Assembly: GCA_017478245.1 (NCBI GenBank)
Contig: JAFVDW010000013.1
Coordinates: 1 to 36,669 of the forward strand
DNA: 36,669 nt
Direction of reading: 5' to 3'
Source: Lachnospiraceae bacterium
GTDB taxonomy: Bacteria > Bacillota > Clostridia > Lachnospirales > Lachnospiraceae
Of the stretch, positions 17,024 through 28,746 are shown piece after piece. The notes beneath the pieces are model-generated. The model was not told the DNA's origin and made no database searches. It saw only the letters and a list, made by a program, of their open reading frames with translations. The position numbers and the translations under genes were made by a program. The first letter of the stretch is position 1, and the number at the start of each line of letters is the position of its first letter.

Positions 17024-17785
17024 CTAGTTAACTGTATTAGCTACTGCATAGAATGAGAACTTCAAGGAAACGTCAATTTTATTATTTGCAGACCAAGGAG
17101 TTGCAGGATTATTCACAGCTTCACCATTAATCTTAATATAGCCGCTTCCAGGATGGGTTGCATCAGTTGCCTTATCGATGGTCATGATACCAGTCATCTT
17201 TGCAGCAGTCTTCTCTGCTGTACCGGGAACCAACATAGTCTTTGCATTGTACTTTGCAGCTGCTTCAGTTGCATCCTTACCGGTTGCCAGATACAGGAAT
17301 ACAGAGTTGGTGGTGTCAGTCTTTGCCAGAGCTGCGGTTGCAAGCTTTGTAGTCTTCAACTTAGCATCCACACCATCATCCAGTGTAACATAGAAAGATT
17401 CTACATTCACCTGAACAGGCACCTTACTTGCATTCTGAATCTCCATAGCCTTGGAAATCACTGAATCTGTAGATGTTACTGCAGGTGTCTCCGGATTTTC
17501 ATCAGTACCTGAACCCACAACTGCTGCTGAAACCTCATACTCTGTACGATAAGGATTCAGAATGATTTTGCTAGGTGTTGCAGGAAGTGTAATCTTCAAA
17601 ACAGGCTGCTCAACCTGAGAGGACATCTCCAGTGCATTCTCCATTGTTACAGAAGATCCGGCACTCGTATTACCTGCCAAACCTGCTTGCTCAGCATCGT
17701 AATCTGCATAGTCTGCAAAAGCAGTCATGCTCATTCCCATAACCATCGTCATTGCCAAACCAAATGCAAAAATTTTCTTCTTCAT
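17024..17785 (-). CDS. Secreted beta-rich protein 1, partner of the upstream membrane protein
   Basis: A 253-residue exported protein of an unnamed family. A Sec signal peptide ends at TAFA|DYADYD (residue 24), with the core LAMTMVMGMSM. The mature part has alternating beta-strand patterns, the motif PSKIILNPYR (shared with the paralogue as PDIILNPYR), IQNASKVPVQVNVESF, and a C-terminal strand ending KFSFYAVANTVN. No LPXTG, membrane anchor, cell-wall repeat or enzyme motif is seen. Start ATG 17785 has GGAG eight bases upstream. It follows the membrane-protein gene by 45 bases and is presumably made from the same sigma-28-type promoter. It could be a surface fibre, adhesin or matrix subunit; this is a structural guess. 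Confidence 0.75.
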   Translation of the reverse strand: MKKKIFAFGLAMTMVMGMSMTAFADYADYDAEQAGLAGNTSAGSSVTMENALEMSSQVEQPVLKITLPATPSKIILNPYRTEYEVSAAVVGSGTDENPETPAVTSTDSVISKAMEIQNASKVPVQVNVESFYVTLDDGVDAKLKTTKLATAALAKTDTTNSVFLYLATGKDATEAAAKYNAKTMLVPGTAEKTAAKMTGIMTIDKATDATHPGSGYIKINGEAVNNPATPWSANNKIDVSLKFSFYAVANTVN

Positions 17786-17830
17786 ATTATTATCTCCTTC
17801 CATGTTAAAAATAATATTCAGTTATCACAG

Positions 17831-18370
17831 CTAATTCACAACCAACTGAAGTCCTACGTTCACCCTGGCATGTTCAACCTCGTGATTGTCTTCTACCTGC
17901 ACATAAGTGATTGTCCCTATATGCGTTCCAGGCTGTAGTTCTTTATTAATTGTAAATGATTCGATACGTCCTCCCAAGGGAATCAACCCGGAGCGATAAA
18001 GTTCTTCTCGAGTCTCATCCTCATACAGGATAAAGAACATATCGTAGCTGTTCTCTACGGCATTTGCTATATAGCAGTAAAATGTTTTTCCATCTGTGCT
18101 TATAGCTTCTGTCCGCATCTCCAAAGTCATCTGACCCTCTTCCGCCTTCATTTCATCAACAAGTGCCTGAAGAGTATCCTCGTCAGCCAGTATCACGCTG
18201 GTATCATATCCGAGTGTGGGGGAATCGTCCTCCGTGGTCATCCCATCCTGCCGTCCGCCTTGCGATAAGATAACATATACCGCCACTCCTACCGCAATCA
18301 GTAAGAGGATAATTACCACAATCAATACGATCAAGACTTTATTGTTCTTATTCTGTTTTTCGTTTTCCAT
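17831..18370 (-). CDS. Single-span membrane protein with extracellular beta domain (copy 1)
   Basis: A 179-residue protein. A short basic cytosolic N-terminus (MENEKQNKNNK) is followed by one membrane helix (about 12-37), a disordered linker, and a ~120-residue outer domain. The landmarks are NSYDMFFILYEDETREELYR, SGLIPLGGRIESFTINKEL and EHARVNVGLQLVV, a beta-sandwich-like pattern. The paralogue at 19453 has the same length and the same landmarks. The start is set to 18370, with AGAGGTG upstream, because it aligns with the paralogue; a longer form from 18460 would read through the conserved leader motif. The protein probably anchors or assembles the secreted protein encoded next (inference). 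Confidence 0.75.
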   Translation of the reverse strand: MENEKQNKNNKVLIVLIVVIILLLIAVGVAVYVILSQGGRQDGMTTEDDSPTLGYDTSVILADEDTLQALVDEMKAEEGQMTLEMRTEAISTDGKTFYCYIANAVENSYDMFFILYEDETREELYRSGLIPLGGRIESFTINKELQPGTHIGTITYVQVEDNHEVEHARVNVGLQLVVN

Positions 18371-18387
18371 GAAACAACACCTCTGTG

Positions 18388-18414
18388 GCGCCCGCCTTAC
18401 AGAGCACCATAAGG
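18388..18414 (-). repeat. 27-bp leader motif, copy 1
   Basis: A 27-base sequence that is identical to the copy at 20009-20035, each lying just upstream of a membrane-protein gene (17 bases here). In the RNA sense it holds CCTTA and TAAGG arms around a 10-base loop, then a GGCGGGCGC tail. The flanks differ, so the identity is local. Confidence 0.7.
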
Positions 18415-18561
18415 TCAGGTTTACTTTCACATCACTTGATTCTTTGCCTAATCCGCACATATCAGGCTCTCAGCAGTGTCATATGTATCACGCTCCCATT
18501 GTGCGTTCTGGGTTAATGCCACATATGGAGTAAACACTTTCGTGTCTCACCTACAATAACT

Positions 18562-18589
18562 ATATCGGCTTGCGCCTATTATTACTTTA
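18562..18589 (-). promoter_or_regulatory. Sigma-28 (SigD)-type promoter for the copy-1 pair
   Basis: Minus-strand TAAA (18586-18589), 16 bases, then GCCGATAT (18562-18569). The flagellin promoter has the same boxes with 15 bases, and the 13 bases GTACTAAAGTAAT around the -35 are shared by both. A leader of about 185 nt runs to the start at 18370. The region 18371-18702, without a gene, holds this leader, promoter and the upstream terminator. Confidence 0.7.
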
Positions 18590-18643
18590 GTACCATTTTC
18601 CAAAAAATGCAATATATTTTTGGAATTTTTGTTAATTTTTTTC

Positions 18644-18679
18644 AAAAAAGGACTCCTCTCACGAGAAGCCCTCTTTTTT
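18644..18679 (-). terminator. Rho-independent terminator of the flagellin-pair operon
   Basis: A stem of 10 bp with two G-U pairs and a four-base loop (GTGA), flanked by A6 and followed on the minus strand by T6. It lies just past the stop codon at 18703 and before the sigma-28 promoter of the next operon. Confidence 0.85.
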
Positions 18680-18702
18680 GTTGTCAGCAATTCAATCAAT
18701 GA

Positions 18703-19398
18703 TTACTTAACAGCGTTAGCCTTTACATCAAACTTATAAGTGAATGTAACATCAAACTTATCAGCTGCAGCCCATGCAGTCTCAGGAGCAGATGTAAGAG
18801 CACCTGCCAACTTGAATACTACAGAACTGGGGGTTACATCACCAGTCTTGCTGGTAGTAGGCAGCGCAACTGTTGTAGCGTTCTCCCATGCATCAGCGCC
18901 ATTGGTAACTACCTTCATCAAAGCAGATTTAGCATCATAAGTGCCCTTCAATGCCTTCTCAGTTGCAGCGGTCTCCAGGAAAATGAAAGCCATCTTCTCT
19001 GTCTCTGCTGCTGCGATAGCTTCCTCGGATACCTCAAGACCAGATGCAGTTACTGCAAAGTTCTGAACAGAGATACTGAGGGGTGTAGTACCAAAGTTGT
19101 AAATATACATCGGGGAGGTAACAAGTGCTGCATTGGATGTAGTGCCTGCATCCTCATCAACTACAACTGCCTCACGATAAGGGTTAAGGATGATATCAGG
19201 AACCTTTGTAGGTACAGAAACCTTAATTGCAGGCATTGCCATCTTGTTAGTACCGGCAGTCAGTGCCTGTGTTGCAGTTCCCAGATTATCTGTTGTAGAG
19301 ATAGTAGGCTCATCAGGTACTTCCTCTGCAAATGCAGTAAGTCCCATACCCATAACCATTGTCATTGCCAAACCTAAAGCTAAAATTCTCTTTTTCAT
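18703..19398 (-). CDS. Secreted beta-rich protein 2, paralogue of the 17024 product
   Basis: A 231-residue exported protein. A Sec signal peptide ends at TAFA|EEVPDEP (residue 24); its core LAMTMVMGMGL is almost that of the paralogue. The mature part repeats the family layout: IKVSVPTKVPDIILNPYREA, YIYNFGTTPLSISVQNFAVT, MAFIFLE...YDAKSALMKV and a final strand ending KFDVKANAVK. No sortase signal or anchor is present. ATG 19398 has GGAG nine bases upstream, and the 20 bases before it nearly match those of the paralogue. It is the last gene of a likely flagellin operon, 54 bases after its membrane partner. Its function is unknown; it may be a filament- or wall-associated structural subunit. Confidence 0.75.
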   Translation of the reverse strand: MKKRILALGLAMTMVMGMGLTAFAEEVPDEPTISTTDNLGTATQALTAGTNKMAMPAIKVSVPTKVPDIILNPYREAVVVDEDAGTTSNAALVTSPMYIYNFGTTPLSISVQNFAVTASGLEVSEEAIAAAETEKMAFIFLETAATEKALKGTYDAKSALMKVVTNGADAWENATTVALPTTSKTGDVTPSSVVFKLAGALTSAPETAWAAADKFDVTFTYKFDVKANAVK

Positions 19399-19452
19399 AT
19401 TATTCTTCTCCTTCCATGTTGAAAAATAGTATACTCCCCAAAACCTACAAAC

Positions 19453-19992
19453 TTATTGAACAATCAGATCTACAGCCACATTTACACGCGCATGCTCTGT
19501 GGCATGGTCGTCCTCCATCTGTACAAAAGTAACCGTACATGCATGTGAGCCTTTTGAAAACTGTTTGTTGACAGTGAGTGTCTCAATGCGCGCCCCTGTG
19601 GGTATAAGACCGGAACGATACAACTCATCCTGCGTCTCATTTTCATACAATACGATGTACATATCATAACTATTTTCCACTGCATTGGCTAGATTGCAGA
19701 CAAATGTCTCGCCATCTTCGCTGTATGCTTCGGTAGCCATTTCTAGCACCATTTGACCTTCCTTGGCCTTTGCAAACATTTCATCCACCATCGATTGTAG
19801 CGTCTCAGGGTCCGCCATCACCGCACTACCTTCATAACCAAGCACCGCCGGCTGTTCGCCCTGCGGTGTTTCTTCTTTTCCTCCCAGCATTTTAACGAGG
19901 AAAAATATCCCACCTGCCAGTAGCAAAAGAAGGATTAATAAGAGTAAAACAATGATGACACGTCTTTCTTTATTCTGTTTTTTTTCTTCCAT
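19453..19992 (-). CDS. Single-span membrane protein with extracellular beta domain (copy 2)
   Basis: A 179-residue paralogue of the 17831 product. A basic cytosolic tail (MEEKKQNKERR) is followed by a Leu-rich membrane helix (about 12-36), a linker, and the outer domain with VLGYEGSAVMADPETLQSMV, NSYDMYIVLYENETQDELYR, SGLIPTGARIETLTVNKQF and EHARVNVAVDLIV. ATG 19992 is preferred over a GTG three codons earlier because it aligns with the paralogue and has GGTAGGTG upstream. It lies 104 bases after the flagellin stop with no other promoter seen, so some flagellin transcripts probably read into it. The outer-domain pattern recurs in unnamed Clostridia membrane proteins. Confidence 0.75.
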   Translation of the reverse strand: MEEKKQNKERRVIIVLLLLILLLLLAGGIFFLVKMLGGKEETPQGEQPAVLGYEGSAVMADPETLQSMVDEMFAKAKEGQMVLEMATEAYSEDGETFVCNLANAVENSYDMYIVLYENETQDELYRSGLIPTGARIETLTVNKQFSKGSHACTVTFVQMEDDHATEHARVNVAVDLIVQ

Positions 19993-20008
19993 GATACACA
20001 CCTACCTA

Positions 20009-20035
20009 GCGCCCGCCTTACAGAGCACCATAAGG
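20009..20035 (-). repeat. 27-bp leader motif, copy 2
   Basis: Identical to 18388-18414, 16 bases before the copy-2 membrane-protein start. Here the outer arms extend to a perfect GCCTTA/TAAGGC stem. Its position in the flagellin to copy-2 intergenic RNA makes it a candidate translation or processing element. Confidence 0.7.
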
Positions 20036-20056
20036 CAAGTATCATTTTAACAACAC

Positions 20057-20084
20057 CCAGGGCACCTTAGGAAAGGTACCCCGG
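20057..20084 (-). terminator. Leaky hairpin after flagellin
   Basis: A 12-bp stem (20057-20068 with 20073-20084, two G-U pairs) and four-base loop, 12 bases past the flagellin stop. The following minus-strand sequence GGTGTTGTTAAAATG is a poor U tract. It may be a weak terminator or an mRNA 3' stabiliser that lets a fraction of transcription continue into the membrane/secreted pair. Confidence 0.6.
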
Positions 20085-20096
20085 AACACTATGCAA

Positions 20097-21110: not shown

Positions 21111-21137
21111 ATATCGGCGTGTTTTTTAATTACTTTA
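21111..21137 (-). promoter_or_regulatory. Sigma-28 (SigD) promoter of flagellin
   Basis: Minus-strand TAAA (21134-21137), exactly 15 bases, then GCCGATAT (21111-21118), a near-perfect match to the TAAA-N15-GCCGATAA consensus. It lies about 190 bases before the flagellin start. Confidence 0.9.
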
Positions 21138-28141: not shown

Positions 28142-28591
28142 TTAGCTCGGCATCGGTATCAGATGATTCAGCTTCAGAATCTCTACAACCGTATCCATAC
28201 CATCTTGCAGCTTCGCAAACTTTCTGTCCGTATTCAGTTCAAACATCCGCAACTCACATTGCACCTCGGTCAGTTGCTCAGACATTTTGTTCTGCCGCAC
28301 TGTCATGGCATCCATTCTGTCCTCCAGCTTCGTAAGACGATTATCCATCTTGTCGAATCTGTGATCCATCTCGTCAAATCTGCGATCCATTCCATCAAGC
28401 CGGATATCTATCCCATCAAGCCGGCTTTCTACCTTGTCCAAACGATTGTCTACCTTGTCCAAACGATTGTCTAAATTATCCAGACGATTGTCTACCTTAT
28501 CCAAACGTCCATCTACCTTGTCCAGCCTCCCGTTAATCTGTCCTAACTCATCCAGAATCTTCTGAAACAATTCATTGTAATTCTCATTCAT
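28142..28591 (-). CDS. Heptad-repeat coiled-coil protein
   Basis: A 149-residue protein with no recognised enzyme domain. Residues ~18-95 are about eleven near-perfect heptads of the form (N/S/G)RLDKVD, so it should form a long parallel coiled coil or oligomer. The last ~50 residues (MSEQLTEVQCELRMFELNTD to the end) are also helical. It lacks a signal peptide and membrane segment. Start ATG 28591 with AAAGGG upstream replaces the longer in-frame start at 28645. A good sigma-A promoter lies at 28747-28775 and a terminator follows, so it is monocistronic. DNA repeats of 21 bp inside the gene may change its length by slippage. Function unknown. Confidence 0.7.
   Translation of the reverse strand: MNENYNELFQKILDELGQINGRLDKVDGRLDKVDNRLDNLDNRLDKVDNRLDKVESRLDGIDIRLDGMDRRFDEMDHRFDKMDNRLTKLEDRMDAMTVRQNKMSEQLTEVQCELRMFELNTDRKFAKLQDGMDTVVEILKLNHLIPMPS
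28428..28511. repeat. 21-bp tandem repeat inside the coiled-coil gene
   Basis: Four near-identical 21-base units start at 28428, 28449, 28470 and 28491, each encoding one heptad of type LDKVDNR. Degenerate units extend to about 28365 and 28525. Loss or gain of one unit keeps the reading frame. Confidence 0.7.
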
Positions 28592-28746
28592 GGCAATCCC
28601 TTTCCCTTTCCAAATATCTGTAAATTTATGCGTGGCGCCTCTCATAGAACCAGTCTAACACATGCAGGGAAATATGTCTATATTTTTTCGCAAAATATAT
28701 AAACGAAATATCGTTAATATTGTAGCCATCACTTTTCTGTATGAAA

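Follow-up and report, generated by a model that had tools for sequence, protein, structure and literature searches.

What do two tandem pairs of genes, each encoding a membrane protein and a secreted protein, do downstream of a flagellin gene? We addressed this question in a stretch of 36,669 nt, hereafter the window, from contig JAFVDW010000013.1 of a Lachnospiraceae bacterium (GCA_017478245.1), in which the pairs were examined within 17024..20001. An earlier note on this DNA interpreted them as a surface structure made with the flagellar filament. After analyzing the locus and its relatives, we consider it probable, with considerable room for doubt, that the pairs form a two-component surface-protein module that is made with the flagellum and has been duplicated here. 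The secreted protein would be an abundant Sec-exported subunit, which its membrane partner holds, folds or nucleates.

Results

Composition of the locus

On the minus strand, the flagellin gene is followed by the two tandem pairs of a membrane-protein gene and a secreted-protein gene, both of which lie where the earlier note had placed them (Table 1). Upstream neighbours of this flagellin are genes that we take, by eye, to be flgN, fliS, fliD and flaG. The membrane partners carry an N-terminal membrane helix; their reported equal length holds when both are read from ATG starts, and they are 57% identical. The secreted partners have Sec-type signal peptides that are near-identical to each other; they are paralogous and have a common motif, as had been stated, with an overall identity of 33%. 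Neither of them has a C-terminal LPXTG-like signal when read by eye, in agreement with the earlier note, and a sortase-anchored surface protein was rejected on this ground. Neither Pfam nor NCBIfam gave a family above cut-off for the pair proteins of the window or for ten relatives, and a sequence search of the solved structures in the PDB returned nothing convincing (best E 0.67 and 0.23). Elsewhere in the window, a 167-aa open frame at 28142-28645 consists largely of a repeated DKVDNRLD-like pattern.

Table 1. Features of the flagellin locus in the window and recombinase segments in related loci
Stretch	Feature	Coordinates	Strand	Basis or remark
Window	Flagellin gene, 273 aa	20097..20918	-	Flagellin_N match at the same coordinates
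Window	Membrane partner 1, 179 aa, charged N-terminus, one helix, outer domain	19453..19992	-	
Window	Secreted partner 1, 231 aa, signal peptide, IILNPYR	18703..19398	-	
Window	Membrane partner 2, 179 aa	17831..18370	-	
Window	Secreted partner 2, 253 aa, signal peptide, IILNPYR	17024..17785	-	
Window	Putative flagellin promoter, SigD-type, TAAA-N15-GCCGATAT	21111..21137	-	Motif match
Window	Putative pair 2 promoter, SigD-type, TAAA-N16-GCCGATAT, resembles flagellin promoter	18562..18589	-	Motif match
Window	Strong hairpin in the flagellin/pair 1 gap, terminator-like or mRNA-stabilising	20056..20085	-	Folding and terminator scan
Window	27-nt leader element, copy 1	20009..20035	-	
Window	27-nt leader element, copy 2	18388..18414	-	
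L034	Inverted-site segment	6021-6806		
L072	Inverted-site segment	971-1724		
L073	Inverted-site segment	1008-1761		
L075	Inverted-site segment	3737-4489		
L035	Inverted-site segment	10041-10805		
L144, L148, L151, L152, L156, L157, L160	Further csrA-adjacent recombinases with inverted sites			Flagellin follows where the contig continues

Conserved pairing and distribution in the family

A profile of the two window membrane proteins matched 39 of 299 genomes of the family at E 0.001. Several weak matches were short stretches in long frames, and counts were therefore restricted to the 20 genomes below E 1e-6. A first pattern scan of the genome contigs, whose patterns lay partly on the N-terminus, found no loci, and a second found five, two of them on the contigs of L034 and L035. 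The pairing itself, which the earlier note had proposed to check, is conserved: downstream of 56 of 68 membrane-family genes, within 300 nt and on the same strand, is a gene whose start resembles a signal peptide, compared with 123 of 640 other genes, as judged by a home-made signal-peptide test that accepts membrane helices as well.

A Flagellin_N match was obtained for 156 of the 299 genomes; flagellin is present in 16 of the 20 genomes with the membrane family versus 140 of the 279 others (p 0.011). The four genomes without it (G033, G172, G179 and G295) all carry another membrane type, which adjoins a sortase gene in L043 and L045. A tree of 54 membrane proteins, limited to frames of 140-280 aa and drawn without the matches in L061, L062, L065, L066, L071 and L092, joined the window proteins and a DPQG type in one wider clade of 28 rows (support 99/94). 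This clade covers 15 of the 20 genomes, and flagellin is found in all 15 versus 141 of the remaining 284 (p 5e-5, for species that are not independent). The earlier note held that homologous pairs living mostly in non-motile genomes would speak against its proposal; because the wider clade is confined to flagellin-bearing genomes of the sample, this objection falls away for that clade. Within the window's genus, a membrane-family match is present in 9 of 61 genomes. Six of the further genus genomes with a match were checked, and flagellin is present in every one, both those with clade members (G308, G345, G317) and those with another type (G326, G311, G313), so that flagellin does not separate the types within the genus.

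By hhalign, the outer domains of four groups of membrane proteins match one another at 92-99%. Among the secreted partners, the window type is joined to the DPQG type (94.9%) and to an IDP-motif type (95.7%), less firmly to two further types (83% and 76%) and not to three others (0.1 to 6.6%), in sets chosen by eye and with pairwise values that carry no database correction. A third secreted gene, with a related domain around the IDP motif, follows the pair in L075 (7278-7982). Other arrangements were seen as well. The window's own genome has a third, distant membrane-family gene (L091, 7265-7810, contig C7) with no secreted gene directly downstream. L043 (6801-13449) and L045 (795-18724) contain related membrane genes and small secreted genes together with sortase and very long surface-like frames, and the membrane/secreted cluster of L043 also includes a gene for a cyclophilin-type protein. 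Genome G149 (L061-L066) holds many membrane and secreted copies in separate clusters, several of which adjoin frames of ~1,800 to 2,400 aa.

Linkage to flagellin

The closest relatives form one clade of seven membrane proteins from six genomes (support 99/99). Linkage to flagellin, which the earlier note had also named as a check, is evident here: six of the seven genes lie directly after flagellin, and the seventh belongs to pair 2 of the window. Two genomic settings are represented in this clade, that of the window and that of L034, L035, L072, L073 and L075, where the gene order is a divergent recombinase, csrA, flagellin, membrane partner and secreted partner. (L034 and L074 share one contig, as do L035 and L076.) Additionally, in G022 (L056), which is from the window's genus, a DPQG-type pair is located between flgN and flagellin homologues. 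Since both the closest clade and the G022 pair adjoin flagellin, this adjacency exists in at least two separate lineages. In G308, about 7 to 8 kb separate flagellin from a DPQG-type pair downstream of it. Among the DPQG-type loci fetched, a flagellin homologue was found in L056 only, and flagellin is missing from the stretches fetched around most members of the wider family.

Promoters, leaders and the origin of pair 2

Only two sites in the window, against 0.01 expected, match the SigD consensus. One precedes flagellin and the other precedes pair 2, where the earlier note had noticed the TAAA-N16 motif, and these motifs suggest that both the window flagellin and pair 2 may depend on SigD. 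Pair 1 had been described as having no promoter of its own, and our scan found no sigma-70-like minus-strand site from flagellin to pair 1. The gap between them folds strongly (z -5.5 for 19990-20096), and its hairpin was listed in a regional scan that found 4 terminator-like sites versus 3.0 expected. Because this hairpin is terminator-like, pair 1 would need read-through. When the flagellin/membrane gap was compared among the window, L034, L072 and L075, the hairpins of the three relatives also beat nearly all shuffles (z -5.4, -5.9 and -3.3, respectively); in L035, this gap is only about 10 nt.

The leaders of the two pairs contain an identical 27-nt element. A search of 61 genomes of the genus that allowed up to three mismatches placed it nowhere else, and it is absent from the other related loci compared. 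Rfam gave no match in the window at the gathering score and none in 18371-18620 at E 5. We rejected the element as a wider regulatory RNA because it is confined to the two window leaders, and it is more simply read as a leader kept after duplication. The leader of pair 2 is colinear with the flagellin promoter, the flagellin leader and the pair 1 leader, in that order. When it was compared with the flagellin-pair 1 unit, the promoter piece was matched as well in none of 500 shuffles, and the same was true of the 27-nt element; the match to part of the flagellin leader is weaker, being equalled in 4 of 500 shuffles. The pair 2 leader was also tested for the decayed remains of a flagellin reading frame, which was rejected, as the common part is the flagellin leader. 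In the simplest reading, pair 2 would be a tandem copy of the whole flagellin-pair 1 unit from which the flagellin gene was then lost, leaving pair 2 with a copy of the flagellin promoter.

Codon bias

When codon usage is scored against flagellin, the secreted genes take ranks 2 and 3 among 33 window genes, and the membrane genes ranks 30 and 18. The ribosomal L2 gene was not found in the window genome, and 14 ribosomal genes of G022 were therefore used as an independent reference. Among 61 genes from four stretches, flagellin then ranks 1, secreted partners 1 and 2 rank 2 and 3, and membrane partners 1 and 2 rank 51 and 48. In the window, this bias is what an abundant exported subunit would be expected to show; the relatives are mixed. 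The secreted gene, flagellin and the membrane gene rank 1, 2 and 3 of 18 genes in G268. In G157 (31 genes), a DPQG secreted gene ranks 1, flagellin 3 and the flagellin-linked secreted gene 13, and in G022 (26 genes), flagellin ranks 2 and the secreted gene 13.

A recombinase segment in related loci

In L072, Pfam identifies the 192-aa gene beside csrA as a tyrosine recombinase and its neighbours as CsrA and flagellin. The recombinase genes of L034, L072, L073, L075 and L035, of which the last has a frame cut short, each lie between two palindromic sites with short asymmetric cores that are mutually inverted. Recombinases of this kind (E 1e-20) are present in 30 of the 299 family genomes, and the window genome yielded none at the same threshold. 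Of the 30 pieces fetched around these genes, 10 show recombinase, csrA and flagellin in this order. An inverted repeat with a score of 18 or more was detected for 14 of 34 recombinase genes, a count that left out L035, and none of 57 control genes exceeded a score of 12; many of the 20 recombinase genes without such a repeat are more distant or near contig ends. An outward SigD-like site at the segment end away from csrA was found in 10 of 15 segments, with a pattern that was loosened after seeing examples and that has no control.

Among the 14, the 11 csrA-adjacent loci are all divergent, with the promoter pointing away from csrA, and each species is represented by one assembly. Since all 11 are in one orientation, inversion stays a sequence prediction. 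Assemblies may break at inverting sites; contigs G143:C16, G208:C65, G001:C90 and G274:C7 end ~170 nt or less from the recombinase gene, an observation that has no control. Overall, the five related loci may carry a Hin-like flagellar phase switch that employs a tyrosine recombinase and acts on the csrA-flagellin-pair operon. Among the literature matches listed (titles and starts of abstracts), there was no description of the pair or of a csrA-flagellin invertible segment in Lachnospiraceae, and the words recombinase and integrase do not occur in the main text of PMC3720852.

Discussion

We provide a putative mechanism for the paired proteins. The secreted partner would be exported by Sec and accumulate at the cell surface. 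The membrane partner would be a single-pass protein, whose charged N-terminus and single helix would place its domain outside, where this domain would hold, fold, nucleate or assemble the secreted partner. The pair would be produced together with the flagellum. The pairing, the duplication, the flagellin linkage, the restriction of the clade to flagellin genomes of the sample and the flagellin-like codon bias of the window secreted genes are computed observations; SigD control, surface location, a holding or assembly role and polymer formation are inferred. However, the codon bias is mixed in the relatives, with a high-ranking membrane gene in G268 and rank 13 for the flagellin-linked secreted gene of G157 and for the secreted gene of G022; many of the family's genes are found apart from flagellin; and the secreted proteins of some other groups do not resemble the window type by profile. 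The interpretation of the earlier note is supported in part, through the pairing, the SigD-type motif and the flagellin linkage, and the codon bias of the window suits an abundant exported subunit; contact of the product with the filament would go beyond this support.

Such contact would be expected if the secreted protein, acting as a sheath or an accessory filament protein, coated or decorated the filament after delivery near the flagellar base by the membrane partner. We regard this as rather unlikely. The operon with flagellin in six genomes and two genomic settings, the flagellin-like codon bias of the window secreted genes and the confinement of the wider clade to flagellin-bearing genomes of the sample would all suit a sheath, but the signal is of the Sec type and not for export through the flagellum, and related membrane domains occur in sortase loci and in genomes that gave no flagellin match. 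Considering the Sec signal, the membrane helix, the lack of flagellin in the stretches fetched around most family members and the one type that lies beside sortase in flagellin-negative genomes, we rate a distinct cell-surface structure that is produced alongside flagella as no less likely than a sheath.

Slightly less credible again is an ordinary surface or matrix pair with no functional tie to the flagellum, whose position next to flagellin would reflect shared SigD timing or chance. It would account for an outer domain that the membrane proteins have in common with non-flagellar loci (hhalign, see above) and for the wider-clade loci, most of them, that have no flagellin in the stretches fetched. 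It sits poorly with a closest clade that adjoins flagellin in two different settings, with a second adjacency in another lineage and with flagellin in every wider-clade genome of the sample. We also considered the membrane partner as a FliL-like flagellar motor protein, with the secreted protein as its substrate or cap, since NCBIfam gave weak matches to models of FliL (best E 1.2e-5) and a weak sequence match came from the PDB (E 0.23). However, the FliL matches span only the charged N-terminus and the helix (~residues 3-42), at 25 bits versus a cut-off of 187, and no FliL domain beyond the membrane helix was detected in the NCBIfam search, which makes this explanation highly improbable. The flagellum-coupled two-component module is the reading that we retain.

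Known two-component surface systems offer partial parallels to this module. The matrix fibres of TasA and camelysin (Peptidase_M73, PF12389) combine an abundant secreted subunit with an accessory partner and have a jelly-roll fold with strand exchange. The window pair is similar in its abundant-looking secreted subunit and accessory partner; membership by sequence profile was rejected, with no Pfam match and an hhalign value of 0.5% to five fetched M73-family proteins. In the WxL protein/WxLIP (DUF916-DUF3324) clusters of Bacillota, a small secreted protein is encoded beside a partner with a membrane helix and an outer domain (PMC10599100). The window has this layout, but its membrane proteins carry the helix at the N-terminus, compared with the C-terminus in WxLIP, and its pair is linked to flagellin. 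WxL membership of the secreted protein was rejected (no PF13731 match; hhalign 0.1% to three fetched WxL proteins), as was WxLIP membership of the membrane partner (no DUF916 or DUF3324 Pfam match; helix N-terminal).

In Salmonella, FljA silences the other flagellin. We speculate, tentatively and with more doubt than confidence, that gut Lachnospiraceae make a two-component fibre or coat, with no described relatives, that is coupled to the flagellum and reaches flagellin-like abundance. In some species, a tyrosine-recombinase switch might phase-vary it jointly with an alternative flagellin and its own CsrA and would then swap filament and coat in one step, CsrA perhaps silencing other flagellins as FljA does. 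The five related loci resemble Hin-fljBA of Salmonella (PMC9368917) in that a recombinase lies inside an inverted-site segment before a flagellin operon; unlike Hin, their enzyme is a tyrosine and not a serine recombinase. In this respect, they are closer to RecV of Clostridioides difficile, whose flagellar switch is a 154-bp element before flgB (PMC5386303). In contrast to the RecV switch, the predicted segment of the relatives includes a recombinase gene of its own, with a SigD-like promoter ahead of csrA, flagellin and the pair.

Work on the flagellins of gut bacteria treats them as immune antigens, and antibody responses to them are the subject of one paper (PMC11285207). If our reading is true, an exported protein that is expressed like flagellin and made with flagellin would be a further surface antigen, and a self-encoded switch over flagellin, CsrA and the pair, if it exists, would predict mixed populations.
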